From Bacteroidales bacterium (GTDB lineage Bacteria > Bacteroidota > Bacteroidia > Bacteroidales > VadinHA17): a DNA stretch of 64,000 nucleotides. Position 1 is the first letter of the stretch, and every line of letters begins with the position of its first letter. This document shows, in pieces, positions 4,607 to 58,830 of the stretch. The stretch is taken from positions 68,498 through 132,497 of the forward strand of contig PLNF01000035.1 of NCBI GenBank assembly GCA_003141715.1, in the 5' to 3' direction. The notes beneath the pieces were generated by a model, which did not search any database, was not told where the DNA came from, and was given only the letters and a program-made list of their open reading frames with translations. A program made the translations under genes and the position numbers.

Positions 4607-5950
4607 ATGAAAAAGGTAACCCTATCTGCTCTAATATTGATAGTTCTGTTAACTGGTTGTGGCTCTTCAAACAACGGAGAGTTGACTGGCGTTCAAGGGC
4701 GGAAAAAATTCTTTGAACCGGAACCCTTTGAAATGGCATTTATTCCTGCCGGGAATTTTATGATGGGACCAAGCGATCAGGATGCCGTATGGGCAATGAA
4801 CAGTATCTCAAAATCTGTTACTGTTGACGCTTTCTGGATGGACCAAACCGAAATCACAAATAATAAATATCGCCAGTTTGTATATTACGTTCGTGATTCT
4901 ATTCTGAGGACAAAACTTGGGAATGCCAGTGTTCCTGACAGACAGTATTTTATGGTTGATAAAGATGGAAATGCTATCGAACCAAATGTGATTAACTGGG
5001 ATGAAAAGATAGATCCAAGAGAAGAGACTACAAAAGCTACAATTGAAGAGATGTATTATCCGCCTGAAGAAAGATTCGACGGAAAAAAACAGGTTGATGT
5101 CAGAAAGCTAAACTATTCCTATTTCTGGGTTGATTACCAACAGGCTGCAAAATCAACTTACAAATATGATTACGCAAATAATACAGGTAAATACGAAGGT
5201 AAGGTTACAAATATTGACGGTACACGTACAGATGTAAAAGACCGCTCATCCTTTATCAAACACAATATCATTAATATTTATCCCGATACTCTGTGCTGGA
5301 TTCGTGATTTTACCTATTCATTCAACGATCCTCAGGCTTCACTTTATTTCTGGCATCCATCTTATGATGACTATCCTGTAGTGGGTGTATCCTGGGTACA
5401 GGCTACAGCATTCAGTGTCTGGAGGACAAACTACATGAACAGTGCTCTCAGAAAGAACGGAGTAGCCGATGTGCATGCATACAGGCTGCCACTTGAAACA
5501 GAATGGGAATATGCAGCAAGAGGAGGTCTTGACCTTTCAATGTATCCATGGGGCGGACCATATACCCGTAACTATAAAGGTTGCTTCCTGGCCAACTTCA
5601 AACCCTTACGTGGTAATTATATTGACGATGGAAATGTTTATACAGGAAAAGTAGGATCATATGAACCAAACGAATATGGATTGTATGATATGTCAGGAAA
5701 CGTTGCTGAGTGGACATGCTGTGCATACTCACCTTCAGCATACATCTTCCAGCACGATCTTCAGCCAAACTATGAGTATAATGCCACACCACAGGATCCC
5801 CCGGTAATGAAAAGGAAAGTAATCCGTGGCGGATCGTGGAAAGACATAGCATATTTCCTTCAGACAAGTGCAAGAGATTATGAATATCAGGACTCTACAA
5901 AATCATATGTCGGATTTCGTAACGTTAGATCTTATATTGGTGTAAATTAA
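4607..5950 (+). CDS. gldK: Gliding motility/T9SS lipoprotein GldK (SUMF1/FGE-like)
   Basis: Lipobox LLTGCGSS; FMMGPSDQD, WEYAARGG, NVAEWT, RKVIRGGSWKD; synteny with gldLMN. Confidence 0.95.
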   Translation: MKKVTLSALILIVLLTGCGSSNNGELTGVQGRKKFFEPEPFEMAFIPAGNFMMGPSDQDAVWAMNSISKSVTVDAFWMDQTEITNNKYRQFVYYVRDSILRTKLGNASVPDRQYFMVDKDGNAIEPNVINWDEKIDPREETTKATIEEMYYPPEERFDGKKQVDVRKLNYSYFWVDYQQAAKSTYKYDYANNTGKYEGKVTNIDGTRTDVKDRSSFIKHNIINIYPDTLCWIRDFTYSFNDPQASLYFWHPSYDDYPVVGVSWVQATAFSVWRTNYMNSALRKNGVADVHAYRLPLETEWEYAARGGLDLSMYPWGGPYTRNYKGCFLANFKPLRGNYIDDGNVYTGKVGSYEPNEYGLYDMSGNVAEWTCCAYSPSAYIFQHDLQPNYEYNATPQDPPVMKRKVIRGGSWKDIAYFLQTSARDYEYQDSTKSYVGFRNVRSYIGVN

Positions 5951-5984
5951 ATAATTAGAAATAACCTTAAAATAATCAGGTAAA

Positions 5985-6872
5985 ATGAGCCTAGCAGAAT
6001 TAGTACAAAGCAGCGGATGGAAGAATTTCATCGCTAAATTATATGGTTTAGGAGCTTCGGTTGTATGTGTTGGTGCATTGTTTAAAATACAGCACTGGCC
6101 AATGGCAGGAACCATGCTTACTGTTGGTCTTCTGACAGAGGGTGTTATATTCTTCTTTTCAGCATTTGAACCATTACATGAAGAGGTTGACTGGTCACTG
6201 GTATATCCTGAACTTGCAGGAATTCCGGAAGACGAAACCCCGGAGCTTGCATCGCATGGAGGAAAATACCATGGTGGTGTTTCTGGCGGAGGCGGTGGTT
6301 ATGGCGGAGGTTCCGGAGCAGTTGCCCTTGCTAAATTTGATGAGATGCTTGAGAAAGCAGAGATCTCTCCTGATTTATTCCAGAAACTGGGTGTCGGAAT
6401 GAAAAAGCTTAGCGAATCAACCGCAAACATGAATGCCATGGGAGATGTTTCTGCCGCTTCTTCAAAGTATATGAATACAATTAACAATGCTAATGATTCA
6501 CTTGGAAAACTATCAGACTCTTACCAGTCAACAACCAAGTTAATTAATGAAACAGGTTCTACATATCGTAATATGGCTGATTCATTATCAGTAATTGAAG
6601 TAGGTGGAAAATCATATCAGCAACAACTGGAATCACTTAACAAAAACCTTTCTGCTCTTAATGCAGTTTATGAACTCCAGCGTAAAGGAGTAGACGATCA
6701 TCTAAAAGAATCTGATTCACTTTACAAAGGAATTCAGGGTTTAATGAAAGATCTTTCAGAATCAGCCGGAGATACTAAAAAATACCGCGAACAGATAACA
6801 AAGCTCAACGATAACCTTTCGGCATTGAACAATGTCTATGGGAATATGCTCGCTGCTATGAATGTTAAATAA
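5985..6872 (+). CDS. gldL: T9SS motor protein GldL
   Basis: GWKNFIAKLYGLGASVVCVGALFKIQHWPMAGTMLTVGLLTE; operon position. Confidence 0.95.
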   Translation: MSLAELVQSSGWKNFIAKLYGLGASVVCVGALFKIQHWPMAGTMLTVGLLTEGVIFFFSAFEPLHEEVDWSLVYPELAGIPEDETPELASHGGKYHGGVSGGGGGYGGGSGAVALAKFDEMLEKAEISPDLFQKLGVGMKKLSESTANMNAMGDVSAASSKYMNTINNANDSLGKLSDSYQSTTKLINETGSTYRNMADSLSVIEVGGKSYQQQLESLNKNLSALNAVYELQRKGVDDHLKESDSLYKGIQGLMKDLSESAGDTKKYREQITKLNDNLSALNNVYGNMLAAMNVK

Positions 6873-6907
6873 CGTGGCTTATTTTATCTAACTAAACTAC
6901 CTACAAA

Positions 6908-8515
6908 ATGGCTCACGAAAAGCTATCTCCGCGACAAAAAATGATCGGTATGATGTACCTGGTGCTTACCGCCATGCTTGCACTTAACGTATCAAAAGAG
7001 GCTGTTGAAGCATTTAGAAAAGTTGATAATGGTCTTACGCAGACAATTAAAAACTATTCTCTTAAAAATGACGTAATATATCGCGAATTCGATAGGGCAG
7101 CTGCTGAAAACCCTACAAAGGCCGGAAAATACAAAACAGCTGCATACCAGGTTAAAGAGCGGGCAGATGAGGCATACAATTTTATACAGGGACTTAAGAT
7201 CGAAATAATCAAAAAAACTGAAAAAGATCCCGAAACTCCTGCTGTTAAAGGAAATGAAGTTATTATTGACAAAGTTGAAAAGCATATTGATGACACTAAC
7301 GTACCATCTGAAATTCTGATCGGAGCTAACGAAAATGGAAAAGCCAACGACCTGAAGGCTCTTCTTGCAGAGTACCGCCAGTTTCTTATCACCACCCTTG
7401 ACGGTAAAAATCCTACTGCAGAAGAGGCTTTGAAAAAAAGCCTTAGCACCGATGACGGGATAAATAAAGATGGCGAAAAGGAACGCTGGGAGAATCTTAA
7501 CTTCCAGACATTACCCATGGTTGCAGTTATTTGTATCCTGTCAGAGTATCAGGTCAACGTCAGAAACGGGGAGACTGAAGTTCTTAACTACCTCTATTCC
7601 CAGATTGATGCATCCTCCTTTAAATTTACTAAACTCGATCCGATTGTTATTCCTACAACTTCTAATTATGTTACCCTTGGAAGCGATTTCGAAGCACGGG
7701 TATTTATTTCCGCTACGGATTCAACTTCGTTTCCTGTAATTACTGTAGGCGATACTAAACTTCCTCTTGATGAATCAGGAAAAGGAATTTATAAAGTTCG
7801 TGCTACCTCAACCGGTCCTAAAAAATGGGGTGGGATAATCGCTCTTAAAGCTCCGGATGGTTCAACTAAAAATTACTCGTTCGAAAATTCATATTTTGTT
7901 GGCGAACCGAATGTTATAGTATCTCCCACTGCTATGAATGTTATGTATATGGGTATTCCTAACCCGATCGACGTTTCTGTACCGGGTATTAGTCCTGATA
8001 AGATTCATATCAAAGTTGTAAATGGAACTTTTTCTACAGAAAGAGTTAAAAAATCAGGCGGAAAGGATTATTTTAAAGGGAGCTGGGCCGTTAAGCCTAA
8101 TGCCGTTGGACAAGATGTACAAGTTATTGTAACAGCTGATATTAATGGCAAACCAACACAATATGCTCCGTATCCATTCAGGGTAAAATCTATTCCTACG
8201 CCTGTTGCGGTATTTGGTGGTAAAAGTACAGGCAGCATTTCAAGAGCTGATGCTCTTGTACAGCAGGGTGTCTTTGCCATAATGCCTGATTTCGACTTTG
8301 AGCTTAACTACACTGTTACGGCTTTTACAATTTTTTATACCAATCAAGGAATGGACATTGAGGAACCTTGTTCATCGAGTAATCTGACTCCAAAACAGAA
8401 ACAGGCGTTGAATGGGCTGACAAGAGGCAAAAACCTTATGATTAAAGATATCAAAGCAGTAGGTCCCGATGGTAAAATACGAGACCTGAATGCCATAATA
8501 TTAAAGATAAACTAG
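6908..8515 (+). CDS. gldM: T9SS protein GldM
   Basis: [31 protein letters not shown]; operon position. Confidence 0.96.
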
Positions 8516-8534
8516 TATCAAAAAACATATCATC

Positions 8535-9359
8535 ATGAATAAGAAAATGCTTTTGGGAATTATCGCCCTTTCACTTTCAGGCCTCGTAAATGCCCAGAGT
8601 TTTGGTGATATTTACCAGAAATCGATGCCGGATGCTAAAAAAATAAATTACCCATATCTCAGGGAAGCCGATGTTATCTGGTCAAGAAAAGTGTACCGGA
8701 TGATTGATCTTCGTGAGAAGATGAATCAATCGCTGTATTATCCAACAGCCCCAACTCTCGATGGCAGGCAAAGTTTCATAAATATTATTCTCGATGAAAT
8801 CAAGTCAGGCAAGCTTATTGCTTATGATACTCAAAATAGAAATGTACCTACCACTTATGGTGATATACAAATAAAATTGGGAGCCGTTGATAAGCATGTA
8901 TCCGTTCAGTTAAATGCTGCAGGAGCCGTAAAAGATTCTGTAGTTAAACAGGAAGCAAAACCGGAGGAAGTGAAATCATTGCTTCTGTACGAAGAATGGT
9001 ATTTCGACAAGAAACTTTCAAAACTCGATGTCAGAATTATAGCTATACAACCGGTCTATATGGGTTTTGATGAGCAGGTTGGAAGAGCAAAGAAGATAGG
9101 GTTATTCTGGATCAAATTTGACGAAGTAAGAGATGCCCTCGCAAAAAAAGAGGTTTTTTCAAGTAATAACGATGCTCAGAGAATATCCTTTGACGATCTA
9201 TTCATGCAACGCAGATTCGATGGTAATATTGTTGGAGAATCAAATGTTTACAACGACAGAATTATTTCAGACTACCAGATAGGGAAGTCCTCTCTTTTTG
9301 AAGCTGACCGCATTAAAACCGAACTGTTCAACTTTGAACACGATCTTTGGGAATACTAA
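8535..9359 (+). CDS. gldN: T9SS protein GldN
   Basis: [26 protein letters not shown]; follows gldM. Confidence 0.93.
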
Positions 9360-31368: not shown

Positions 31369-31415
31369 ATTTTTTGCTATTCCGATTTTTTTTTGTTGCT
31401 TTGTACCGTAATAGA

Positions 31416-31472
31416 TTAGTGGAAAGATTTGTGCTGATTGCAACCACAGGAAAAAAATGCTAAACCGCGGAT
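31416..31472 (+). ncRNA. SAM-II-like riboswitch upstream of metK
   Basis: GTGG-aaaGATTTG..GATTGCAA-CCAC-aggaaaaaaATGCTAAA: P1 pairing plus conserved UUGCAACCAC and GCUAAA core, ~65 nt before the metK start. Confidence 0.6.
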
Positions 31473-31537
31473 AATTCCCTTTTTACAATCAACCAATCTT
31501 CCTGTATGATGTTTAATAATAAATTAATAATATTATT

Positions 31538-40448: not shown

Positions 40449-40561
40449 TTTTTATCATCTCCCGGCTTTCCGGGATTAGGTTTTGGCACCGTTCTCCTAA
40501 ACTTCAGGATTGGTTGCCAGGGTTTCGCAGAGCCTAATCTCTTCACCCTTCTTAATAAAAA
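40449..40561 (-). ncRNA. SAM-I-like (S-box) riboswitch upstream of metY-hom-metH-metF
   Basis: Minus strand TTTTTATT-AAGAAGGGTGAAGAGATTAGGCTCTGCGAAACCCTGGCAACC..CGGTGCCAAAACCTAATCCCGG..GGGAGATGATAAAAA; P1 TTTTTAT/ATAAAAA. Confidence 0.88.
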
Positions 40562-46994: not shown

Positions 46995-47300
46995 TTGGTT
47001 GATAATTGGAATGCAATGGCTGGTTTGAAATCGATACTTTCCAAATCTGCTTCAGTAGTTAACCGGAAAACCGGAAATGAATATGTGCTTGTGCCCATTA
47101 CAAACAACATAGCAGATATGAACAGCGTTTATACTCTGAATGAGACAGGTGCTTTCATATGGGAACAAATTGACGGAAAAAGAAGTGTTGAAGAGGTCAT
47201 TAATGCCTTGACAGCTGAGTATGATATTGACTTTAAAAATGCAGAGGCAGATGTTTTTTCTTTTGTTGAAAATATGAGTAAATATCTTATTATCCATTAA
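46995..47300 (+). CDS. PqqD-like peptide-chaperone family protein
   Basis: VYTLNETGAFIWEQIDGKRSVEEVINALTAEYDID. Confidence 0.85.
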   Translation: MVDNWNAMAGLKSILSKSASVVNRKTGNEYVLVPITNNIADMNSVYTLNETGAFIWEQIDGKRSVEEVINALTAEYDIDFKNAEADVFSFVENMSKYLIIH

Positions 47301-47330
47301 TAGAAAAACTTGCTATTACGATTTTTTTTA

Positions 47331-47368
47331 TTGCCACCAAGACACAAAGACACCAAGTAGCACCAAGG
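47331..47368 (+). repeat. Left inverted repeat of the GxxExxY unit
   Basis: TTGCCACCAAGACACAAAGACACCAAGTAGCACCAAGG; inverse of 47762..47799. Confidence 0.9.
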
Positions 47369-47369
47369 T

Positions 47370-47759
47370 ATGTTTAAAGAAATTTCACAGGAAGAAGATC
47401 GGATTGGCAAAGAAATTGTCAATGCAGCTTTTCATGTTCACACGCAACTTGGTCCTGGATTATTAGAAAAAGTATATGAAGTCTGCTTTTGTTATGTTTT
47501 GGCACAGAAGGGATTTGAAATAAAAAGACAATTAGATATACCAATTGTATTTGAAGGATTAGTTTTCGAAGAAGGTTTAAGATTAGATGTCATGGTCAAC
47601 GATCTGGTCATTTGCGAACTTAAGGCTTTAGAGAATGTAAATCCAGTGTGGGAAGCACAGTTACTTAGCCATCTTAAATTAACAAACAAACGTTTAGGTT
47701 ATCTTATAAATTTTAATGTTCCTTTAATTAAAAATGGTATTAAAAGAATAGTGATTTAG
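47370..47759 (+). CDS. GxxExxY family protein (PD-(D/E)XK nuclease-like)
   Basis: HVHTQLGPGLLEKVYEVCFCYVLAQKGFEIKRQ; LDVMVNDLVICELKALENV. Confidence 0.9.
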   Translation: MFKEISQEEDRIGKEIVNAAFHVHTQLGPGLLEKVYEVCFCYVLAQKGFEIKRQLDIPIVFEGLVFEEGLRLDVMVNDLVICELKALENVNPVWEAQLLSHLKLTNKRLGYLINFNVPLIKNGIKRIVI

Positions 47760-47761
47760 TT

Positions 47762-47799
47762 CTTGGTGATTACTTTGTGTCTTGGTGTCTTTGTGGCAA
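47762..47799 (-). repeat. Right inverted repeat of the GxxExxY unit
   Basis: Reverse complement TTGCCACAAAGACACCAAGACACAAAGTAATCACCAAG. Confidence 0.9.
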
Positions 47800-47827
47800 A
47801 AATCTAATACACAAATGCTTTAAAAAT

Positions 47828-48715
47828 ATGAGGAATTATAACTTAAATATTGCAGGATATAATATCGGGTTTGAAGCTTCAGCCAACGGACCTGAGCTTA
47901 AACCGTCGGCAAGATTCCTCAGAAATATCAACCCGAATAACTTATCGGATATCCTCATCCGGGTTCATTCAGAGCCCTTTAATCTGCCAAAAGGAGCTGA
48001 AAGGGTTTTCAGGGCTCCTTACGTTGAAGAGATAAATGGCATCCAGTTCAATAATGAGACAAACTTCTGGAGTGTCTGGAAATATCGCTCCGAACTTTTT
48101 ATCTGGACAATCTTCCCACTCTCTGTTTCAGAGAAAAATGCAGTATTGAAATTCTCACTTACATCGATGGAATGGGACCTCTGGATTTACGGTGCCCGGG
48201 ATGAGACAGATCCTTTTGAGTATCCCCTGGACGGACTGATACTATATTACCTGACAGTTATAAATGGGGATATAATGATCCATGCATCGGGAGTTAACAA
48301 TTCAGGACATGGTTATATCTTCAGCGGAGTGTCAGGAAAAGGGAAATCGACAATGGCAAAGCTCTGGGATAATTCCGGAGCTAAGGTCATCCACGATGAC
48401 AGGCTTATTTTAAGAAATTCAGGAGGTGGCTACAGGATGTTTAATACTCCGGTTTATAATAATGATGAACCTCGTGAATCAACCCTTAACAAGATTTTTA
48501 TTATTGAACATGGTCTTGAAAATATGCTGGTCCCGTTAAAAGGAGCCAATGCAGTGACACAGGTAATGGCGAACTGTATACAACATAACTGGGGGGCAGA
48601 CATCATCGCCAGGCTTCTTGGTTCTATTTCGATTATGTGCGGGACGATACCAACATCAAAGCTATTCTTCAAACCCGACAGAAGTGTAATTGACCTTATC
48701 CTCGACAATGAATAA
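47828..48715 (+). CDS. HPr kinase/phosphorylase-like P-loop protein (ATG 47828 preferred)
   Basis: IMIHASGVNNSGHGYIFSGVSGKGKSTMAKLW; VIHDDRLILR. Confidence 0.82.
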   Translation: MRNYNLNIAGYNIGFEASANGPELKPSARFLRNINPNNLSDILIRVHSEPFNLPKGAERVFRAPYVEEINGIQFNNETNFWSVWKYRSELFIWTIFPLSVSEKNAVLKFSLTSMEWDLWIYGARDETDPFEYPLDGLILYYLTVINGDIMIHASGVNNSGHGYIFSGVSGKGKSTMAKLWDNSGAKVIHDDRLILRNSGGGYRMFNTPVYNNDEPRESTLNKIFIIEHGLENMLVPLKGANAVTQVMANCIQHNWGADIIARLLGSISIMCGTIPTSKLFFKPDRSVIDLILDNE

Positions 48716-49172
48716 CTGGCGGAACAATCATACGATTGTGAAAGATATCGGTCTCACTTTACTCGCCGAAGGAAAAACCATCAGGATAAAAGCTCACGGG
48801 TACAGTATGTATCCCTGCATTAAACCAGGTTCCCTGATACTGATCGAACCGTTGAATATCAAGGGGATGCCCCGCTCCGGAGAGATTATTGCAATTCGTA
48901 GAGAGAGCGGTCTTATCGTCCACCGTCTTTCTAAAATAATAAACAAGAATGGAGTTAAATGGTATATCGCAAGAGGAGACAGTAATGCATATGCCGATAA
49001 TCCGATTAAATTAGATAAAATAGCAGGACGGATAGTGCGAGCTGAATCCACGGGAGAAAACCCGGTTCCTGCTGATATCAGTATTAACACAAAACCAAAT
49101 TATTTTGTTAACAGGATAAGAGTGATAGGTTTGCTTTTATGGAAAAAATTAAACTATTCAGGGAATCTTTAA
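48690..49172 (+). CDS. S24/S26-like signal-peptidase-fold protein
   Basis: IRIKAHGYSMYPCIKPGSLILIEPL; GEIIAIRRESGLIVHRLSKI; WYIARGDSN. Confidence 0.82.
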   Translation: MTLSSTMNNWRNNHTIVKDIGLTLLAEGKTIRIKAHGYSMYPCIKPGSLILIEPLNIKGMPRSGEIIAIRRESGLIVHRLSKIINKNGVKWYIARGDSNAYADNPIKLDKIAGRIVRAESTGENPVPADISINTKPNYFVNRIRVIGLLLWKKLNYSGNL

Positions 49173-50923
49173 GGCTTGTCTGGAACAGCTCCCCGGGATG
49201 GACTTTCACAAATATTGTGATGTCTGTTCTGCGGAGTGTCTTCCCTCTAATGCTTATCTGGCTTCTGAAAGTAGTTATTGATGACATAACTAAAGCTGCC
49301 ACGGCAGCTCCCTCCAATCCGAACATAAATGTGCTCTGGCCGGTATTGGCAGTGGTTATAATCTGGTTTCTCGATGAAGCCTCATCTGATTTCAGCAATT
49401 ATGTCCGTAAAAAACAGGCATTGAAGCTTGAGGTCTATATGTATGGATTGTTGCATTCAAAGGCCATAAAACTGGACCTTATCAACTTTGAGCGTCCCGA
49501 ATATTTCGATTGCCTGTCACGCGCCTCACGGGAAGCCCCATGGCGCCCGAACAGCATCCTTAATAACCTGGTTTCAATGCTAAGAGGGCTTCTCTCTCTG
49601 TTACTTATGGCCGGACTTATCTTTACTCTTCACTGGACTCTTGCTTTACTTCTTCTTGTTGCAAATATTCCCGGAATATGGTTACGGCTCTATTATGCAG
49701 ATATCCTGTATAATTTTCAGAGGCAGCAAACTCCCGAAGCAAGAAAATCTGCATATTTTAACTGGCTGCTTACAGGTGACAGGCCTTCCAGGGAACTGAG
49801 GCTGTTCGGACTGGGAAATTATTTCATCAGCCTCTTCAGAAAGTCTTTCCTGAAGCAAAAAGAGGAAGAGATCAATATCATCCGAAGAAGAACACTGATA
49901 GAATTTGTTTCTAATCTTTTCAAAGCATCAGCTCTTTTAGTTTCCCTGTTGTTTATCGCACGCCAAACAATCAGCGGAAAACTTTCGCTTGGTCAAATGG
50001 CTATGTTCCTGCTTGCTTTCAGGCAGGGAATGATATATATTAAAGATCTGTTCAGTTCACTGGCAGGACTGTATGAAGATAGTCTCTTCATCGGCGACGC
50101 ATTTGAATTTCTGAATCTGAAAGAAAATGTCACAGCTGCTGAACCGGTAATTGTGCCATCTCCGCTAAAGAAAAAAATAGAGGTAGATAATCTGTCCTTC
50201 ACCTATCCGGGGAATAACTTCAGGACTATAAGTAATGTCTCATTTGAAATAAAAAAGGGAGAAATAATAGCTCTCGTCGGACCTAACGGTGCCGGGAAAA
50301 GCACTCTTGTGAGGCTGCTATGCAGACTTTATGATTCCGATTCGGGAAACATTAAATATGACGGCACGGATATCAGGAATATCGATCCTGAAGAGTACAG
50401 GAAACATTTTTCAGTTGTTTTTCAGGACTTTATGCTTTACAATCTTACAGCCGGAGAGAACATCCGGATGGGAAATATTGATGAAAAAAGTCCTGATGGC
50501 CGGATAAAAGCATCAGCAACAACTACCGGTGTTCATGAATTAATCGATAATCTGCCAAATGGTTATGAGACTGTTATCGGAAACCTGTTTGATGACAGCC
50601 GTGAACTCAGCTGGGGGGAGTGGCAGAAGATTGCCCTGGCAAGAGCTCTCTTCAGGGATGCTCCGGTACTGATCCTCGATGAGCCATCCAGCGCCCTGGA
50701 TGCTGGCACGGAATATGATATCTTCAGCCGGTTCAGGGAGATAGTTAAAGGCCGTACATCGATTCTTATAAGTCATCGGTTTACAAATGTCAGCCTGGCT
50801 GACAGGATAATTGTCCTCGATAAAGGGGCAATTGCTGAAACCGGTACGCATGATGAGCTTATGAAGAGAGGCGGAATCTATTTCACAATGTTTACAAGGC
50901 AGAGCAGCAGGTTTAACAAATGA
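49139..50923 (+). CDS. ABC transporter, fused permease/ATPase
   Basis: TM domain; Walker A GPNGAGKST; ELSWGEWQKIALARALFRDAPVLILDEPSS. Confidence 0.92.
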   Translation: MEKIKLFRESLRLVWNSSPGWTFTNIVMSVLRSVFPLMLIWLLKVVIDDITKAATAAPSNPNINVLWPVLAVVIIWFLDEASSDFSNYVRKKQALKLEVYMYGLLHSKAIKLDLINFERPEYFDCLSRASREAPWRPNSILNNLVSMLRGLLSLLLMAGLIFTLHWTLALLLLVANIPGIWLRLYYADILYNFQRQQTPEARKSAYFNWLLTGDRPSRELRLFGLGNYFISLFRKSFLKQKEEEINIIRRRTLIEFVSNLFKASALLVSLLFIARQTISGKLSLGQMAMFLLAFRQGMIYIKDLFSSLAGLYEDSLFIGDAFEFLNLKENVTAAEPVIVPSPLKKKIEVDNLSFTYPGNNFRTISNVSFEIKKGEIIALVGPNGAGKSTLVRLLCRLYDSDSGNIKYDGTDIRNIDPEEYRKHFSVVFQDFMLYNLTAGENIRMGNIDEKSPDGRIKASATTTGVHELIDNLPNGYETVIGNLFDDSRELSWGEWQKIALARALFRDAPVLILDEPSSALDAGTEYDIFSRFREIVKGRTSILISHRFTNVSLADRIIVLDKGAIAETGTHDELMKRGGIYFTMFTRQSSRFNK

Positions 50924-52092
50924 AAAACAAAATTAAGATAAGGGATGAAGAGTACCTTCTGCTAGGATTATGCCGTCTTGAATTTAGTAATGAACAACTA
51001 AACAAAATCAGGTCACTTGTTGTTGTAATAACCGACTGGAACTATTTCAGGAACCTTGCCAATGAACATGGTGTGGCAGCGCTGGTCTGGCATAATCTTG
51101 AAAAACACTCTCTTTTCCCCGGAATACCTGAGGAGGTTGTTACTTATCTGCGAAGTACATTGATGATAAGCCTGAGCCGGAATACTTTCAATACCGAATC
51201 AATGGGTGAGGTTCTCCGGCTGCTGAATGCGGAGAATATCAAAACGGTTATTCTTAAGGGACTGGCACTTGAGAATTCCGTTTATGGCAGTTCGGGACTA
51301 CGGCAGATGTCAGATGTTGATATCCTGATTAACAGGGAAGAGTGCATCAAAGCAAGAAAGATCCTTATCAGTAACGGATATGAATCGCTTCCTGTAAAAT
51401 CATTTTTTCATAACCTTATAATTGGCTATTCCGGCAAACATCTTCCCTCGCTCATTAAGAGCGGGACTTCTGTTGAGATACACCATGAGCTTTTCGGTGG
51501 GAGAAAAAACTTACTGACCAAATTGCTGTACGATAGCAGCTATGAGGTTGAGTTAAAAGGAGAAAAAACCTGGTTTCCTCAGCCGCAGATCTTTTTTCTT
51601 TATCTCGTCAAGCATCTCTGGCTGCATGAGATGAATAATGAATCACAACTCAGGTTATACACTGATCTAATTGTTCTGATCGAAAAATATAATGATGAGA
51701 TATTAAATTATAATCTCCTTAAGTATGCCTCAAAGGCAGGTATGTCAGAGATACTTGCGTGGCATCTGGAGCCATTAAGAGATATGTGGAGCGTATCCTT
51801 TCCGGGATGGCTCAACGATTTTATTGATAAATGGCATAATCAGGATTTTATTAATAAGTTTTTTTTCTTCCTCAGGAGTCCGAAGGATAATCCGCCTGGT
51901 GATAAGGCAGGGTTTTATCGTCATATTTTAGGCGATATTCCCGGATTACATCGTAAGTTTCTGTATGTTTTAGGAGATCTTTTTCCATCTGTCAGTTTTA
52001 TGAAGAACCGTTACAAATGTAAAAGTACGTGGCGCGTGTTGCTTTATTATCCTCATAGATTAGGGAAGGTTTTGTGGTTGTTTAGGAAATGA
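50920..52092 (+). CDS. Nucleotidyltransferase-like protein (NTP_transf_5 type)
   Basis: ILKGLALENSVYGSSGLRQMSDVDILINREE; SVEIHHEL. Confidence 0.82.
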   Translation: MKNKIKIRDEEYLLLGLCRLEFSNEQLNKIRSLVVVITDWNYFRNLANEHGVAALVWHNLEKHSLFPGIPEEVVTYLRSTLMISLSRNTFNTESMGEVLRLLNAENIKTVILKGLALENSVYGSSGLRQMSDVDILINREECIKARKILISNGYESLPVKSFFHNLIIGYSGKHLPSLIKSGTSVEIHHELFGGRKNLLTKLLYDSSYEVELKGEKTWFPQPQIFFLYLVKHLWLHEMNNESQLRLYTDLIVLIEKYNDEILNYNLLKYASKAGMSEILAWHLEPLRDMWSVSFPGWLNDFIDKWHNQDFINKFFFFLRSPKDNPPGDKAGFYRHILGDIPGLHRKFLYVLGDLFPSVSFMKNRYKCKSTWRVLLYYPHRLGKVLWLFRK

Positions 52093-52481: not shown

Positions 52482-52691
52482 ATGAACAAGTTTCAGAAAG
52501 AGACTCTAAAGATGAGGTTACTAAAACTTGCGATGTTAAAGAGCACGGGGGCGCCTGCTGAACTGGCCTTAAGATTTGAGATTAGCGAACGAAGTGTAAA
52601 GAGGATTGTTAAAGAAATCCGGGAAGAGGGAACAGATCTCAGGTACAGTCAGTCGAGGCGATCATATGTAACAGACGAAGATTATCAATAA
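52482..52691 (+). CDS. Small HTH DNA-binding protein
   Basis: MLKSTGAPAELALRFEISERSVKRIVKEIREEGTDLRYSQSRRSYV; TATATTTG promoter-like site at 52404. Confidence 0.65.
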   Translation: MNKFQKETLKMRLLKLAMLKSTGAPAELALRFEISERSVKRIVKEIREEGTDLRYSQSRRSYVTDEDYQ

Positions 52692-52799
52692 TATGTTGTA
52701 TAACATATCGATTATCTATTTTTCTGTCCCTGTGGTTTTTTAAACTTGTATTATAAAGTCATTGTCATTTAATTTAAGATGGGTTTTAATTTAGCTAAT

Positions 52800-52984
52800 A
52801 TCAGCATCGGGAAGTGGTCAAGTCGCAGGATTTTTAGGAATTCCTGCCATTCAGCACTTTCCGGTTTCACAGGTCGTTCCTCGCTGCGTTTTTCGTGCTA
52901 TTAGTCTCGTTCTTTTGAACGACAGGTCGTCCTGACCGAGACCCCGCCCCGGGAGATTGCTGATTATCTTCCGGGGTTTTTTTT
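52800..52984 (+). ncRNA. Candidate orphan structured RNA with strong terminator
   Basis: GGGAAGTG/CACTTTCC enclosing GCAGGA/TCCTGC; GTCTCG/CGAGAC domain; 11-bp terminator stem plus T8. Confidence 0.5.
52947..52984 (+). terminator. Intrinsic terminator
   Basis: CCCCGGGAGAT-tgctgatt-ATCTTCCGGGG-TTTTTTTT. Confidence 0.9.
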
Positions 52985-53134: not shown

Positions 53135-53494
53135 ATGAAAGGATTTGTCTATATAATGACAAATAACAATAATTCCGCCCTCAACACCGGAGTTACCAGT
53201 GATCTAAAGGAACGTATACTTCAGCATAAAACGAAAAAGTACGCGAATAGTTTCTCTGCAAAATATAACATATGCAAACTAGTCTATTTCGAAAGTTGCG
53301 AAACGATAAAGGAAGCCATAAAAAGAGAGAAACAAATTAAGGCGGGTAACAGAAATAAAAAAATTGAACTGATAAATGAGACGAACCCGGAATGGGATAA
53401 CTTAAATTTAATTCTGGATGGGAGTTTGGGATTGCCACGCCCTCCTTACCCGCCTTCGCCGAGGCTTCGGCGGGCACAGTCGGGCTCGCAATGA
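53135..53494 (+). CDS. GIY-YIG nuclease domain protein with repeat-encoded C-terminus
   Basis: GFVYIMTNNNNSALNTGVTSDLKERILQHK; FESCETIKEAIKREKQIKAGNRNKKIELI; tail GLPRPPYPPSPRLRRAQSGSQ comes from the repeat. Confidence 0.88.
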   Translation: MKGFVYIMTNNNNSALNTGVTSDLKERILQHKTKKYANSFSAKYNICKLVYFESCETIKEAIKREKQIKAGNRNKKIELINETNPEWDNLNLILDGSLGLPRPPYPPSPRLRRAQSGSQ

Positions 53495-53589
53495 CACTGC
53501 AAGTAAGGTTAATTCTGGCTGGGAGCAGAACCGAGGTAAGTAAAATCCCCGGTCATTGCGAGGAGCGAAGCAACGAAGCAATCTCATGG
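53428..53589. repeat. Interspersed inverted repeat (same family as 23498..23640)
   Basis: GATTGCCACGCCCTCC..GTCGGGCTCGCAATGAC and GGTCATTGCGAGGAGCGAAGCAACGAAGCAATCTCATGG. Confidence 0.88.
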
Positions 53590-53753
53590 AATAGCAAGAA
53601 ATTTAATTAAATAAGACCACATTGCAAATCGATATTTCCGTTGCTATGCACCTTTTTGATTTAATACTAAGCGGCAGAGCCGCGAAATATTTGTAGAAAT
53701 GAAATTATGGAATGAGAGCAGAGATGCAGAGCACCGTAATAAATAATCCTCTA

Positions 53754-54449
53754 TTACCGCGATAATACAAAACAATAAATGCTATTTATAAGTATATGTG
53801 AGGCAATACATAAATAAATGCCTTTTGCATACCTAACTCTTAAATAGCCCCAAAAACATCCTGAGAATATATAATTCATTATGAACAGAGGAAATAGATA
53901 GAAATACTTAATTTCTATATTATAGTTTGTCAGATGTAAAAATCCAAATAACAAGGCTTGAAAATAGAAAACCACTCGAAATTTTAAAGTGAAAAAGTCG
54001 ATTAATTTAATGAGGAAGAAGGAGTCTTCTCGAAGAAATAAAGAGAGAGAAAAATACAAAATTAGTGAAAGGGATATAGCTAAATAAACATTGGATATTA
54101 AACGTTTAAAGACCAGCAAAGAAATTAATATACTAAATGATATTACCAAATTAAATTTAGAACTCCGTAGGGGAAGTCTGAAGATTAACTCTTCAATTAT
54201 AGGGTAGAATAAGGAAATCTTCAATATATTAAATAAACTAAAATTTATTCCCTTTACAGATGGAAATAAATTAAAATATATTAGTGGCCCGCAAAAAAGT
54301 AGCCCTAAAATAATATCGCTTGCCAGAAGAATAAGAAATGATTTCCAGACCAGCTTTAAAAATGAAGAAAGTGATTTAATATCAAATTGTTTCTCAAGAC
54401 TAGGATTTTTGAGAAATATAATAAAATCACTAAAATCAATCATTTTCAA
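53754..54449 (-). CDS. CPBP-family intramembrane metalloprotease (possible immunity protein)
   Basis: Multi-TM; YPIIEELIFRLPLR motif, FGFLHLTN, ASHILINSIYC. Confidence 0.75.
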   Translation of the reverse strand: MKMIDFSDFIIFLKNPSLEKQFDIKSLSSFLKLVWKSFLILLASDIILGLLFCGPLIYFNLFPSVKGINFSLFNILKISLFYPIIEELIFRLPLRSSKFNLVISFSILISLLVFKRLISNVYLAISLSLILYFSLSLFLREDSFFLIKLIDFFTLKFRVVFYFQALLFGFLHLTNYNIEIKYFYLFPLFIMNYIFSGCFWGYLRVRYAKGIYLCIASHILINSIYCFVLSR

Positions 54450-54495
54450 TTTGAAAATCGATTAATTGTAAAGTCTATGATACGAGATCTAATAT

Positions 54496-54527
54496 AGAGA
54501 AATGCAATTGAATAATTGCATTTCTCT
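54496..54527. terminator. 14-bp perfect inverted repeat between peptide 3 and the CPBP gene
   Basis: AGAGAAATGCAATT-gaat-AATTGCATTTCTCT. Confidence 0.55.
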
Positions 54528-54539
54528 AACATTAATTTA

Positions 54540-54680
54540 CTAAAGAAGCTCAAAGAGGGATCTTAAAAAAAAGAATTTTTTAAGACCACTTCCTATAGCA
54601 TATCCAACTTCATAAGCAACATTTACTCCTCCTGAAATTTGTACCATTTCAGATAATTCTAATTCTTTTAAATTTTCCAT
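54540..54680 (-). CDS. Double-glycine leader peptide 3 (46 aa; bacteriocin-like precursor)
   Basis: Manual translation MENLKELELSEMVQISGG|VNVAYEVGYAIGSGLKKFFFLRSLFELL*; not in ORF track. Confidence 0.82.
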   Translation of the reverse strand: MENLKELELSEMVQISGGVNVAYEVGYAIGSGLKKFFFLRSLFELL

Positions 54681-54700
54681 AATAAATATATTTAAATTTT

Positions 54701-54868
54701 TTATTGTGCATGTTGGCCATCAATCCCATCTTGCACTCCTTTGATCAAGGCAACAGCTGCTCCTACGGTAGCACCAATAATCAGTCCAAGATAATAACTG
54801 AAAGTTTTCCCTCCATCAATTGAAATCATTTCTTTTGATGTAAGTTCTATGACTCCAAACTTTTCCAT
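54701..54868 (-). CDS. Double-glycine leader peptide 2 (55 aa; class II bacteriocin-like precursor)
   Basis: Manual translation MEKFGVIELTSKEMISIDGG|KTFSYYLGLIIGATVGAAVALIKGVQDGIDGQHAQ*; GxxxG motifs; not in ORF track. Confidence 0.86.
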   Translation of the reverse strand: MEKFGVIELTSKEMISIDGGKTFSYYLGLIIGATVGAAVALIKGVQDGIDGQHAQ

Positions 54869-54883
54869 AAATAAAATTTTTAA

Positions 54884-55048
54884 TTAAATTTTTATTGCTC
54901 TTTCATAACCGTCCTTTATTCCTTCAATTAGTTCAAGAACTTTTCCTCCTGAAGTCAAAAAGAGTGATATTATAGACTGAAACATACCACCATTAAACTC
55001 CTTTAGTTCATTCTCATTTAAATCAATTAAGCCGAATTTATTTCCCAT
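54884..55048 (-). CDS. Double-glycine leader peptide 1 (54 aa; bacteriocin-like precursor)
   Basis: Manual translation MGNKFGLIDLNENELKEFNGG|MFQSIISLFLTSGGKVLELIEGIKDGYERAIKI*; not in ORF track. Confidence 0.86.
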   Translation of the reverse strand: MGNKFGLIDLNENELKEFNGGMFQSIISLFLTSGGKVLELIEGIKDGYERAIKI

Positions 55049-55108
55049 AACTTTAATTTTTTATTTGAAATTTTACTCTTTCCCCATTTCTTTCACATGC
55101 CCGGGGCT

Positions 55109-55453
55109 TTAGCATGGTAATATTACCATACTAAGGTCGTAGAGCAGCGTCCGGAAAAAAAGGATTTTGGAGAAAATATTTATTCCACCGGAATTTTCTT
55201 GTTCTTCATTATAGCTCAATGGCCGTAGGGAACAGGTCACAGCTATATCATATGGCTGCCGGTAGAAAAATGTCTTTGCCGATTTTGAATATACGATTGG
55301 CGCCCCACGTGATCTTAATTCATCAATCAACTCATAAAGACTGGTACGGCTAATACCCAGCTGCTGTGCAAACTCTTCCGGAGTTCCTGTCTTCTGCCTC
55401 GAGACAAGCTTATGCATCATACTTATGCGATCGAGATATTCAAAGACTTTCAT
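55109..55453 (-). CDS. HTH regulator with C-terminal double-glycine-like extension
   Basis: KTGTPEEFAQQLGISRTSLYELIDELRSRGAPIVYSKSAKTFFY; tail LSYNEEQENSGG|INIFSKILFFRTLLYDLSMVILPC. Confidence 0.75.
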   Translation of the reverse strand: MKVFEYLDRISMMHKLVSRQKTGTPEEFAQQLGISRTSLYELIDELRSRGAPIVYSKSAKTFFYRQPYDIAVTCSLRPLSYNEEQENSGGINIFSKILFFRTLLYDLSMVILPC

Positions 55454-55466
55454 GATATATTGTATT

Positions 55467-57635
55467 TTATGGTTTTATGGTTTCTTTAATATCAATTGTC
55501 TGGTGCAGCCACATCCTGCGAAATGGCCCGTCAATTACTGACAGTTCTGTTAATGACCCGTCCTGAACAACCAATCCCTTTTCAAGCATAATGACCCTTT
55601 GAGCCATAAGAATTGTTGATAGCCTGTGGGCAATTACAATTACTGTTTTAGATTCTTCCCTCAATAACCTCAGAGTGTTTTGCACAAATGTCTCCGCCAG
55701 TGAGTCAAGCGAGGAGGTGGCTTCATCAAGGATCAGAATCTCCGGATTTCGATAAAGTGCCCTGGCAATAGCTATTCGTTGCTGTTGCCCTCCGGACAAT
55801 GTGGCTCCGTTTTCTCCCAGGTATGTATTGAATCCATGTGGCAGTTGCTCTATGAATTTTGTCATCCCTAGTTTGTCGCATACTTCAATCACCCTGGTCA
55901 TATCAGGATTAAAATCCCCGACAGCAATGTTATCCACAACATTCCCTGAAAACAGATCAATCCTTTGAGGTACAACAGAAACAATCTTACGCAATGACTG
56001 GTTGGTAAGATGACGGAGATCATAACGTCCAATGCGGATATGACCCGACTGAAGAGGATAGAGATTTTGAAGTAATGAAACCAGAGTAGTTTTACCTGAA
56101 CCGCTCTCACCTGCTACAGCAGTTATATCTCCTTTCTTAATTGTAAGATTCAGCGAATCGAAAACATCAACTCTGGTACCATACCTGAACTTTACATTCT
56201 CAAAATGTATGTCATCAACCATTTCCAGTTTTAGTTCTATTTTATTTGACTCATCTTCTATCTCCAGATCAAAAATTTCAAATAGTCTGTCTGAAGCAAT
56301 CCTTGCATCCTGTAATGTGCGGTTAAATCCGATTACAGAGGTAACCGGAGCAGTAAAATATCCTACAACCGAATAAAATGAAAGCAACTCCCCGGGTGTA
56401 ATTTGTGATCCAATTGCATATCCCGCTCCAACCCATAATACAAGAATTGTAATCAGTTGGGAAATAAGACTGGTTGAACTTGATGAAAAAATGCCATTTA
56501 ATCCTGACTTATAAATTATCTCCAGAAGATTGACAAATCTTGTCTCTGTTTTCAGATTTGAAAAATCTTCGAGCCCGAACCGTTTAATAGTTCCAACTGA
56601 GTTGAGAGATTCCACCAGTTGTGCCTCAAGGTCAGCCGCCCGTTCCATGACCTTCCGCTGAACCTTCCTGTTAAGTCTGTCAGAGACATAATATATCAGT
56701 GCATAGAATGGGACAACAATAAGCAAGATCAGTGCCAATTTCCAAAAGAAGGTGAACATAAGTGCAAACGAAACAACCAGAATGAAAAGGTTTAGAATAA
56801 AACTTATGGTGACCTCATTTACAAATACCCGTATTTTGACTGCATCACCAATTCTTGATATTATTTCGCCTGTTCGCATATTATCAAAAAAGGTCTGCGG
56901 CAGTTTTAATAGATGCTGATAGTATCCAAGTATAAGTGTTGCATCAATTTTCTGACCAGTCTTAAGAATAAAGATTGTCTGGAAGAAACTAAGCAGGAGA
57001 CGTAGTACAATTATGAGAACCATTGCAAAACCCAGCAGGTTTAAAAGGCTAAGATTTCCGCCCGGAAGTACAGTATCTACAAGCTTCCCTACATAAATTG
57101 ACATTGCAAGACCAAGCACAGAAAATACCAGCGCACCTGCAAGAGATTGTAACAGGATGCCTCTGTGAGGTTTTATCAAATTCCAGAAGCGAGCCTGAGT
57201 TGAAATCTTTTCATTTTTAACTGTAAACTTTTCACCTGGAGCTATAAGTACCAACACTCCGGTCCACTCTTTTTTGAATTCTTCATGTTCAATCTTATGA
57301 AAGTCCCCATCTGCGGGATCCATTATTTCAATATACTTATCAGTTGTTTTTATCAGAACAACATAGTGATGAAGCACCTCTCTCACAATAACATGTGCAA
57401 TTGCCGGTTTTGGTATTTTGAATAAACTATCCCAATCACCTCTTACACCTTTTGCCAGAAATCCCATCTTTCCTGCAGCCTCTACAAGTCCTAAAACATT
57501 TGTCCCTTTTTTATCAGTTCCGGCAAATTGTCTTATTCGTGCAACCGGCAATTTCAGATGGTAATGGGCGGCAATTGAGGCAAGACACGCTGCCCCGCAA
57601 TCGGTAATATCCCTCTGTTTTACTTTTATACTCAT
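55467..57635 (-). CDS. Peptidase-containing (C39) ABC transporter, bacteriocin/RiPP exporter
   Basis: VKQRDITDCGAACLASIAAHY; HHYVVL; MDPADG; Walker A GESGSGKT; LSGGQQQRIAIARAL. Confidence 0.96.
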   Translation of the reverse strand: MSIKVKQRDITDCGAACLASIAAHYHLKLPVARIRQFAGTDKKGTNVLGLVEAAGKMGFLAKGVRGDWDSLFKIPKPAIAHVIVREVLHHYVVLIKTTDKYIEIMDPADGDFHKIEHEEFKKEWTGVLVLIAPGEKFTVKNEKISTQARFWNLIKPHRGILLQSLAGALVFSVLGLAMSIYVGKLVDTVLPGGNLSLLNLLGFAMVLIIVLRLLLSFFQTIFILKTGQKIDATLILGYYQHLLKLPQTFFDNMRTGEIISRIGDAVKIRVFVNEVTISFILNLFILVVSFALMFTFFWKLALILLIVVPFYALIYYVSDRLNRKVQRKVMERAADLEAQLVESLNSVGTIKRFGLEDFSNLKTETRFVNLLEIIYKSGLNGIFSSSSTSLISQLITILVLWVGAGYAIGSQITPGELLSFYSVVGYFTAPVTSVIGFNRTLQDARIASDRLFEIFDLEIEDESNKIELKLEMVDDIHFENVKFRYGTRVDVFDSLNLTIKKGDITAVAGESGSGKTTLVSLLQNLYPLQSGHIRIGRYDLRHLTNQSLRKIVSVVPQRIDLFSGNVVDNIAVGDFNPDMTRVIEVCDKLGMTKFIEQLPHGFNTYLGENGATLSGGQQQRIAIARALYRNPEILILDEATSSLDSLAETFVQNTLRLLREESKTVIVIAHRLSTILMAQRVIMLEKGLVVQDGSLTELSVIDGPFRRMWLHQTIDIKETIKP

Positions 57636-57639
57636 AATA

Positions 57640-58830
57640 TTATGACCCCTTTACATAGGTGTAAGGATTGAACCATTTATCTGCCTTATCGAATAATAAA
57701 TGATATAAACTCCGTCGAATTACGATGATCCTGGTATTGAGGCTCATTCCCTTTTTAATTTCAGCTTTATAACCATTCTTTAATGAAAGGAATGTTTTTT
57801 CAGGTTTACACTTAACCCTGAAATATGCGACCGATCCATCTTCAACAATCATATCATCAGAAATATCAATAATATCACCCTGCAGCATTCCCCATTCATT
57901 ATAGTTAAATGCATCCACCTGAATTTTGACTTTCTGCTTCTCATGGATAAATCCGATTTCAGCAGGTTTTACAAAACAGGTCGCAACCAGTTCTCCTTCC
58001 GGTGAAATCTCTGCAATTTTCTGTCCCGGAGCTACAATGCTTCCTGTCTGAATATCTGAACTTTGAATGATTTCCCCGGCTGTCGGAGCCAGGACTATCC
58101 GGTTTGTCAACTCCTCAGAGCATTGCTTTAAATCGGCAAGAAGTTTGACTGAATCATTTCTGCGTATGGTTAAATCGCTCTGCCATTGTGATTTCTGAGA
58201 TAATAATATCTGATCCAGATTGTCTTTCTCGGAAGTAAGCAAAAAGAGGCTGTTTTCATAATCGATTTTTGGTATGATCTGTTGATTATAAAGAAGTTTA
58301 TTCCGTTCATGTTCAGTTTTTTTCTTCTGATATTTTTGAAACTGGATCGTTTGCTGATTTCTGAGATTTTCAAATTCAGCCTTATATTGTTGTGTAATTA
58401 GTCCGATATGAAAAGGCCGTTCTTCTAAGAAATATATTTTCGTCAGTTTTTCCAGATCCTTAATAGAAGCATCATTTTCCCCTATCCTCTGCATCAGGGA
58501 AGCATGTTGAGCCCTGATAGTTTCTGTATCAAAGACTAAAAGAGTATCACCTTTTCTTACTGCTCCTCCGTTACGTATCGATGTATAGATAATTCTCCCC
58601 TGGAACGGAGCAAGAACCACCTGTTTTTCAATATCCGATTGAAAATAGCCTCTGGCCTGCACTGAAACATCCACATAGATAAAAGGAAGAATTCCAATAG
58701 CAATCATGATCATCCCAATAATAATCCAATAGATAATCCTGCTCCTGGTCGTTATGTTTATCAGGTAGGTTTCAAGACTGAATTTTGATATAGAAAATGG
58801 GATCAGTTCCACTTTTATAACTTCTAGCAC
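57640..58830 (-). CDS. HlyD-family periplasmic adaptor (GTG start in ORF track)
   Basis: VQARGYFQSDIEKQVVLAPFQGRIIYTSIRNGGAVRKGDTLLVFD; coiled coil; IVLAPTAGEIIQS. Confidence 0.92.
   Translation of the reverse strand: MLEVIKVELIPFSISKFSLETYLINITTRSRIIYWIIIGMIMIAIGILPFIYVDVSVQARGYFQSDIEKQVVLAPFQGRIIYTSIRNGGAVRKGDTLLVFDTETIRAQHASLMQRIGENDASIKDLEKLTKIYFLEERPFHIGLITQQYKAEFENLRNQQTIQFQKYQKKKTEHERNKLLYNQQIIPKIDYENSLFLLTSEKDNLDQILLSQKSQWQSDLTIRRNDSVKLLADLKQCSEELTNRIVLAPTAGEIIQSSDIQTGSIVAPGQKIAEISPEGELVATCFVKPAEIGFIHEKQKVKIQVDAFNYNEWGMLQGDIIDISDDMIVEDGSVAYFRVKCKPEKTFLSLKNGYKAEIKKGMSLNTRIIVIRRSLYHLLFDKADKWFNPYTYVKGS

Follow-up and report, generated by a model that had tools for sequence, protein, structure and literature searches.

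A predicted, previously uncatalogued small RNA appears to have travelled long with a tiny DNA-binding-protein gene within one Bacteroidota group

The 64,000-nt stretch of DNA analyzed here (the window; G000:C57:68498-132497) carries a small HTH protein gene and, behind it, a predicted RNA gene of ~230 nt. The locus order is syntenic among relatives, running from IspG and RNase R through an operon of PqqD, HprK-like, S24 peptidase, ABC, and NTP_transf_5 genes to the HTH gene and the RNA. The features of the locus are the following.

52482-52691, plus strand: small HTH protein gene (69 aa, HTH_11-like), the constant neighbor of the RNA
52691-52708, no strand assigned: palindrome ATATGTTGTATAACATAT just behind the HTH stop codon, a possible operator or weak hairpin
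52720-52748, plus strand: conserved promoter-like block TTTTCTGTCCCTG..TTTTTTAAACTTG, kept in inverted copies, with an RNA-specific TGTCCC block
52755-52984, plus strand: RNA gene, predicted transcript of ~230 nt with an inferred start and its end at the T run
52755-52768, plus strand: AAAGTCATTGTCAT at the predicted RNA start, with a similar AAGTCAATGTCAT near the HTH transcript start in several genomes, a possible shared operator
52781-52808, plus strand: AU-rich 5' block GGGUUUUAAUUUAGnnAAUAUCAGCAUC, conserved at the nucleotide level, a candidate seed region
52808-52863, plus strand: 5' hairpin domain, in which the outer helix CGGGAAGUG/CACUUUCCG is partly conserved and the inner GCAGGA/UCCUGC is not
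52880-52887, plus strand: near-invariant core CUCGCUGC, which clades with CAGGCA..UGCUUG or CAGGUGCG..CGUACCUG stems place in a hairpin loop
52904-52942, plus strand: 3' domain with covariation, an outer GUCUC/GAGAC helix enclosing GUUC/GAAC (52909-52920) and GGUC/GACC (52925-52937)
52947-52984, plus strand: intrinsic terminator, an 11-bp stem (52947-52976) whose loop holds a conserved GCUGAU, followed by T8 (52977-52984)

Elsewhere, the window holds a GldK-N-like cluster (4607-9359) and two riboswitches above the Rfam threshold, a SAM-II long-loop riboswitch upstream of metK (31413-31473, plus strand) and a SAM-I riboswitch upstream of a run of genes for methionine biosynthesis (40449-40561, minus strand). 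The GldK-N-like cluster and the SAM-II riboswitch point to Bacteroidota as the source. The operon at 47016-52092 (PqqD, HprK-like kinase, S24/S26 peptidase, ABC transporter, and NTP_transf_5, with a GxxExxY-type gene inside it at ~47371) resembles RiPP (lasso-like) accessory genes, and no precursor peptide was seen there. A dispersed intergenic repeat of the CATTGCGAGGAGCGAAGCAACGAAGCAATCTC type occupies 53420-53590, and L025 has a comparable stretch downstream of its RNA. The minus strand at 53754-58830 encodes a bacteriocin-like cluster present in some relatives only, consisting of a CPBP protease, three double-glycine-leader peptides, a C39 ABC transporter, and HlyD; a second HTH gene of the same family (55109-55453) lies inside it. 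In one relative, L003, tandem repeats encoding GAMHLSNP..LLQILRC-like units (2500-2989) are found downstream of the RNA and a CPBP gene.

The initial annotation described 52800-52984 as an orphan structured RNA that lacks ORFs and ends in a strong terminator. This description holds: no Rfam family matches, homologues show compensatory changes, the terminator is conserved, and no credible long ORF is present. In cmscan, Rfam 15 gave no match at gathering score over 52800-52984, and at E values up to 10 there were weak matches far below threshold, either to the terminator only or on the opposite strand; with no family match, the claim of novelty stands. The 5' end was short, the predicted start lying at ~52755. 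The word orphan applies to databases only, since in the genome the RNA is tied to the upstream HTH gene and not to the GIY-YIG/bacteriocin side. It seems largely right to regard 52755-52984 as a real stand-alone small RNA gene of a previously uncatalogued family. The identity of the family is new and its kind already known: a predicted noncoding RNA gene, restricted to a genus, with a constant HTH neighbor. It has general traits of an independent intergenic sRNA, namely its own predicted promoter (as judged from sequence only), a terminator, conserved structure, and noncoding character, and is single copy in its own genome. A phage or plasmid origin was considered and rejected, with no matches in phage and plasmid collections.

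BLASTN recovered RNA homologues in genomes of the same genus only, and over all methods homologues occur in about half of the genus. Homologues were identified with a covariance model built on 12 sequences together with inspection; three of the weakest matches (L077-L079, E of 0.007 to 0.12) and L071 were kept after their core, promoter block, and terminator had been examined by eye. The related RNAs, conserved at the RNA level, are recognized by the core CUCGCUGC, by small hairpins, and by a terminator of the form CCCCGG...CCGGGG whose loop holds GCUGAU, and they lie downstream of nearly every HTH copy. Of the 33 genus genomes carrying the HTH gene (E ≤ 1e-9), 31 have the RNA beside it, and the remaining two have contigs that stop within or close to the HTH gene. 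Outside the genus, nothing credible was found in 393 genomes sampled from the order, the other genera of the family, or 396 genomes sampled from the phylum; matches in the order and family with E of 0.003 to 0.008 proved to be unrelated terminators or a tRNA region. The RNA family thus appears confined to one genus among about 900 Bacteroidota genomes searched, although weak relatives may be missed, since stricter filters apply to searches over >40 genomes.

The interval 52800-52984 has a minimum free energy of −70.5 kcal/mol (z = −5.2; none of 200 dinucleotide shuffles folds equally well), and z is about −3 when the terminator is removed. Many homologues without their terminators have modest z-scores and do not beat shuffles, so folding energy alone proves little, and the case for RNA structure rests on covariation. 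In the model-fitted alignment, pairing holds in 92% of cells, and two-sided changes occur in 21 of 24 pairs, a count reached by none of 500 shuffles of that alignment (8.4 ± 1.9 pairs). Because a model-fitted alignment leans toward structure, the count was repeated on a MAFFT-only alignment of the 12 sequences, where two-sided changes are seen in 10 of the 24 pairs, again a number that none of 500 shuffles reaches; in slid controls, the paired fraction drops to 30 to 62%. Covariation strongly backs the predicted 3' half, that is, the GUCUC/GAGAC outer helix, the GUUC/GAAC and GGUC/GACC hairpins, and the terminator.

The homologues and covariation that the initial annotation had proposed looking for were therefore both found, and all of its nested pairings exist in the window. 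Evolution bears out those of the 3' domain (GTCTC/GAGAC, GTTC/GAAC, and GGTC/GACC), and the 11-bp terminator stem with T8 is present, conserved, and supported by covariation. The 5' pairings, GGGAAGTG/CACTTTCC and GCAGGA/TCCTGC, lack such support: the outer helix is paired in 86% of cells and the inner one, the weaker case, in only 62%, neither with covariation beyond shuffles. In the window sequence, the near-repeat ACAGGTCGT(T)CCT does exist, but several homologues have not kept it. A hairpin presenting CUCGCUGC is significant in 8 of 28 homologues, and seven homologues, whose stems are CAGGCA..UGCUUG or CAGGUGCG..CGUACCUG, give it good support; the window's own sequence gives a p value of 0.94, so this hairpin is claimed for other clades only. 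A pseudoknot between 5' AUCAGCA and the terminator loop UGCUGAU is exact in the window but at chance level over homologues (p of 0.16 to 1.0) and was rejected. No consistent closing stem was found, and the predicted fold is a chain of hairpins plus the terminator.

Within this group, the RNA appears to have travelled long with the gene of its tiny DNA-binding neighbor. The neighboring operon is lost in G049 and G018, where HTH and RNA persist, and the bacteriocin/C39 side of the locus varies among genomes. G010 has lost the HTH reading frame but retains the RNA, meaning that HTH is not always needed for the RNA. Linkage is seen in both orientations. Four genomes (G014, G046, G052, and G056) carry the RNA in inverted orientation, convergent with HTH, with the same promoter-like block upstream; ABC and RNase R trees place these four in one clade with the same-strand locus of G025, so at least two orientation changes are needed.

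The promoter-like block accompanies the RNA. TAnnTTTG is the Bacteroidota −7 consensus (PMC7366714), and TAAACTTG (52741-52748) resembles it, with no clear −33 box seen; in most genomes, the block 5' of the RNA reads CTGTCCC(C/T)GG..TTTTTTAAAATTG, whose TAAAATTG likewise resembles TAnnTTTG. The distance from promoter to core is 143 to 155 nt in the same-strand loci measured. The distance from HTH to promoter differs in G018, where RNA and promoter block have shifted away from HTH together. The block CTGTCCCCGG..TTTTTTAAAATTG has one perfect match in the genome, at the RNA, and its three further matches (two mismatches) are at control level. A wider regulon under the TGTCCC promoter was rejected, as the perfect match is the RNA alone. 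Among same-strand loci with the RNA promoter, most conserve the palindrome ATATGTTGTATAACATAT, its arms being kept while its center varies in some relatives, and it may serve as the HTH operator. Short, weak elements resembling AAGTCAwTGTCA occur near the start of both the RNA and the HTH transcripts in several genomes.

With moderate confidence, we propose that the locus encodes a ~230-nt regulatory sRNA with its own promoter and intrinsic terminator, controlled by the adjacent HTH protein and acting by base pairing in trans. The RNA would be read from its promoter-like block and end at the intrinsic terminator. The HTH protein would set its transcription, and likely that of its own gene, with ATATGTTGTATAACATAT, TGTCCC, and AAGTCATTGTCA as candidate control sites; the two-orientation linkage, the RNA-specific promoter, and the similar AAGTCAwTGTCA element on both transcripts make it the likely regulator. 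The RNA would act in trans by pairing with target mRNAs through the 5' block, CUCGCUGC, and the GCUGAU of the terminator loop. Outside helices, conservation is highest in the 5' block and in CUCGCUGC, a pattern that agrees with target pairing as in GibS and MasB. Comparison shows the RNA-level conservation, the 3'-half structure, the HTH linkage in both orientations, and the conserved promoter-like block and terminator; transcription, control by the HTH protein, and target pairing are steps that we infer. Target sites near start codons within the window did not exceed expectation in 150 tests, and the idea that the loops pair with the ISER codons of the HTH gene was rejected because those codons are not constrained.

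An unlikely alternative is that the RNA is a protein-binding decoy or scaffold, as CsrB and 6S are, with CUCGCUGC and the GCUGAU loops being protein sites, possibly for HTH itself. Short invariant loop motifs on covarying stems and the constant linkage to one small protein would suit such a role, but the HTH protein has no RNA-binding domain, and the RNA has neither the closing stem nor the bubble of 6S. Decoy RNAs carry many protein sites, whereas each RNA here has one copy of each motif. The 6S models (RF00013 and RF01685) match neither the locus nor anything elsewhere in the genome, and 6S of this lineage may therefore just escape them; a 6S-type rod with paired 5' and 3' ends and a central bubble was likewise not seen in the RNA. 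The missing match, the missing closing stem, and presence in only about half of the genus together argue that this RNA is not 6S.

Quite unlikely, too, is that the RNA is only the structured 3' UTR or terminator of the HTH mRNA, stabilizing that transcript or releasing a processed RNA. Six genomes (L067, L068, L069, L070, L073, and L080) fit this account, since the RNA core begins ~20 to 40 nt past the HTH stop codon with no promoter block, and there the RNA would be a 3'-UTR product. Against it, the inverted convergent copies keep their own promoter block, the block of G018 has moved from HTH with the RNA, and G010 has the RNA without HTH. The inverted copies indicate that the RNA is neither merely the HTH 3' UTR nor a leader of the next gene, though it apparently can be expressed as a 3' UTR.

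It is improbable that HTH and RNA make up a single two-part regulatory unit, descended from an HTH plus exported-peptide pair, with the RNA taking over from the peptide signal and directly binding or controlling either the HTH protein or its mRNA. HTH regulators of the same family as the RNA's neighbor lie upstream of GG-leader peptide genes in the order, and at the locus described here a noncoding RNA stands where the peptide gene would be. Other families of the order (L125-L153) often have genes of the HTH family just upstream of double-glycine peptide genes, and a leader that holds GGATACCGAAAAGC- or AGCCCGAAAGCC-like stretches often separates the two. One of these HTH and double-glycine peptide loci, L148, matches the DUF805b RNA family.

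A small-protein mRNA, starting with the ATG at 52779 and a 41-codon frame (MGFNLANISI...), is very unlikely. Most of the window's clade has a similar ATG/GTG start and similar first ten codons, but codon changes are not biased to synonymous ones (by inspection), frame and length vary among homologues, the core is read in different frames, and the frame is absent in L062 and clade 2; without a conserved frame, this reading is not supported. Least likely is a cis-acting leader (riboswitch or attenuator), because, although the terminator precedes another gene in the window, downstream genes vary among genomes and are often convergent or absent, with no constant same-direction partner as riboswitches have, no Rfam match exists, and the RNA faces the HTH 3' end in inverted loci.

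The trans-acting sRNA that we favor resembles several known Bacteroidota RNAs. GibS is described as an intergenic sRNA of 145 nt whose 5' seed is single-stranded (PMC7366714), and FopS is deposited in Rfam and has 14 paralogues (PMC11697453). Like these two Bacteroides sRNAs, the RNA would be independent, with its own promoter, a conserved 5' stretch, hairpins, and an intrinsic terminator. It differs in its length of ~230 nt, its multihelix 3' domain, and its adjacent HTH gene, and it is single copy, in contrast to the 14 FopS paralogues. There was no match to GibS or FopS at the level of Rfam 15, which may not hold FopS. MasB is a ~100-nt Bacteroides sRNA that is activated by Cur and pairs near the start of its target mRNA; Cur controls a wide regulon, and the paper does not describe its gene as lying beside masB (PMC10994844). 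The proposed RNA would likewise be an sRNA under a transcription factor and pair with targets, but it is ~230 nt long rather than ~100 nt, and its regulator candidate is adjacent, unlike Cur as described. Bacteroidales-1, Bacteroides-1, and 6S-Flavo (Weinberg 2010, PMC2864571; RF01693, RF01694, and RF01685) are also structured Bacteroidota RNAs from comparative genomics, and none matches the locus in cmscan.

Little is known so far about how small RNAs act in Bacteroidota, where the absence of Shine-Dalgarno sequences left open whether trans-encoded sRNAs regulate translation (PMC7366714). The RNA described here adds a covariation-supported noncoding RNA family that Rfam lacks, and in 31 genomes it is linked to a single likely regulator. 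Inversions that occurred naturally, together with the one natural case of regulator loss, may be used for testing the pairing of HTH and RNA. If the proposal is true, the locus would be a compact HTH-sRNA unit with an RNA-specific promoter.
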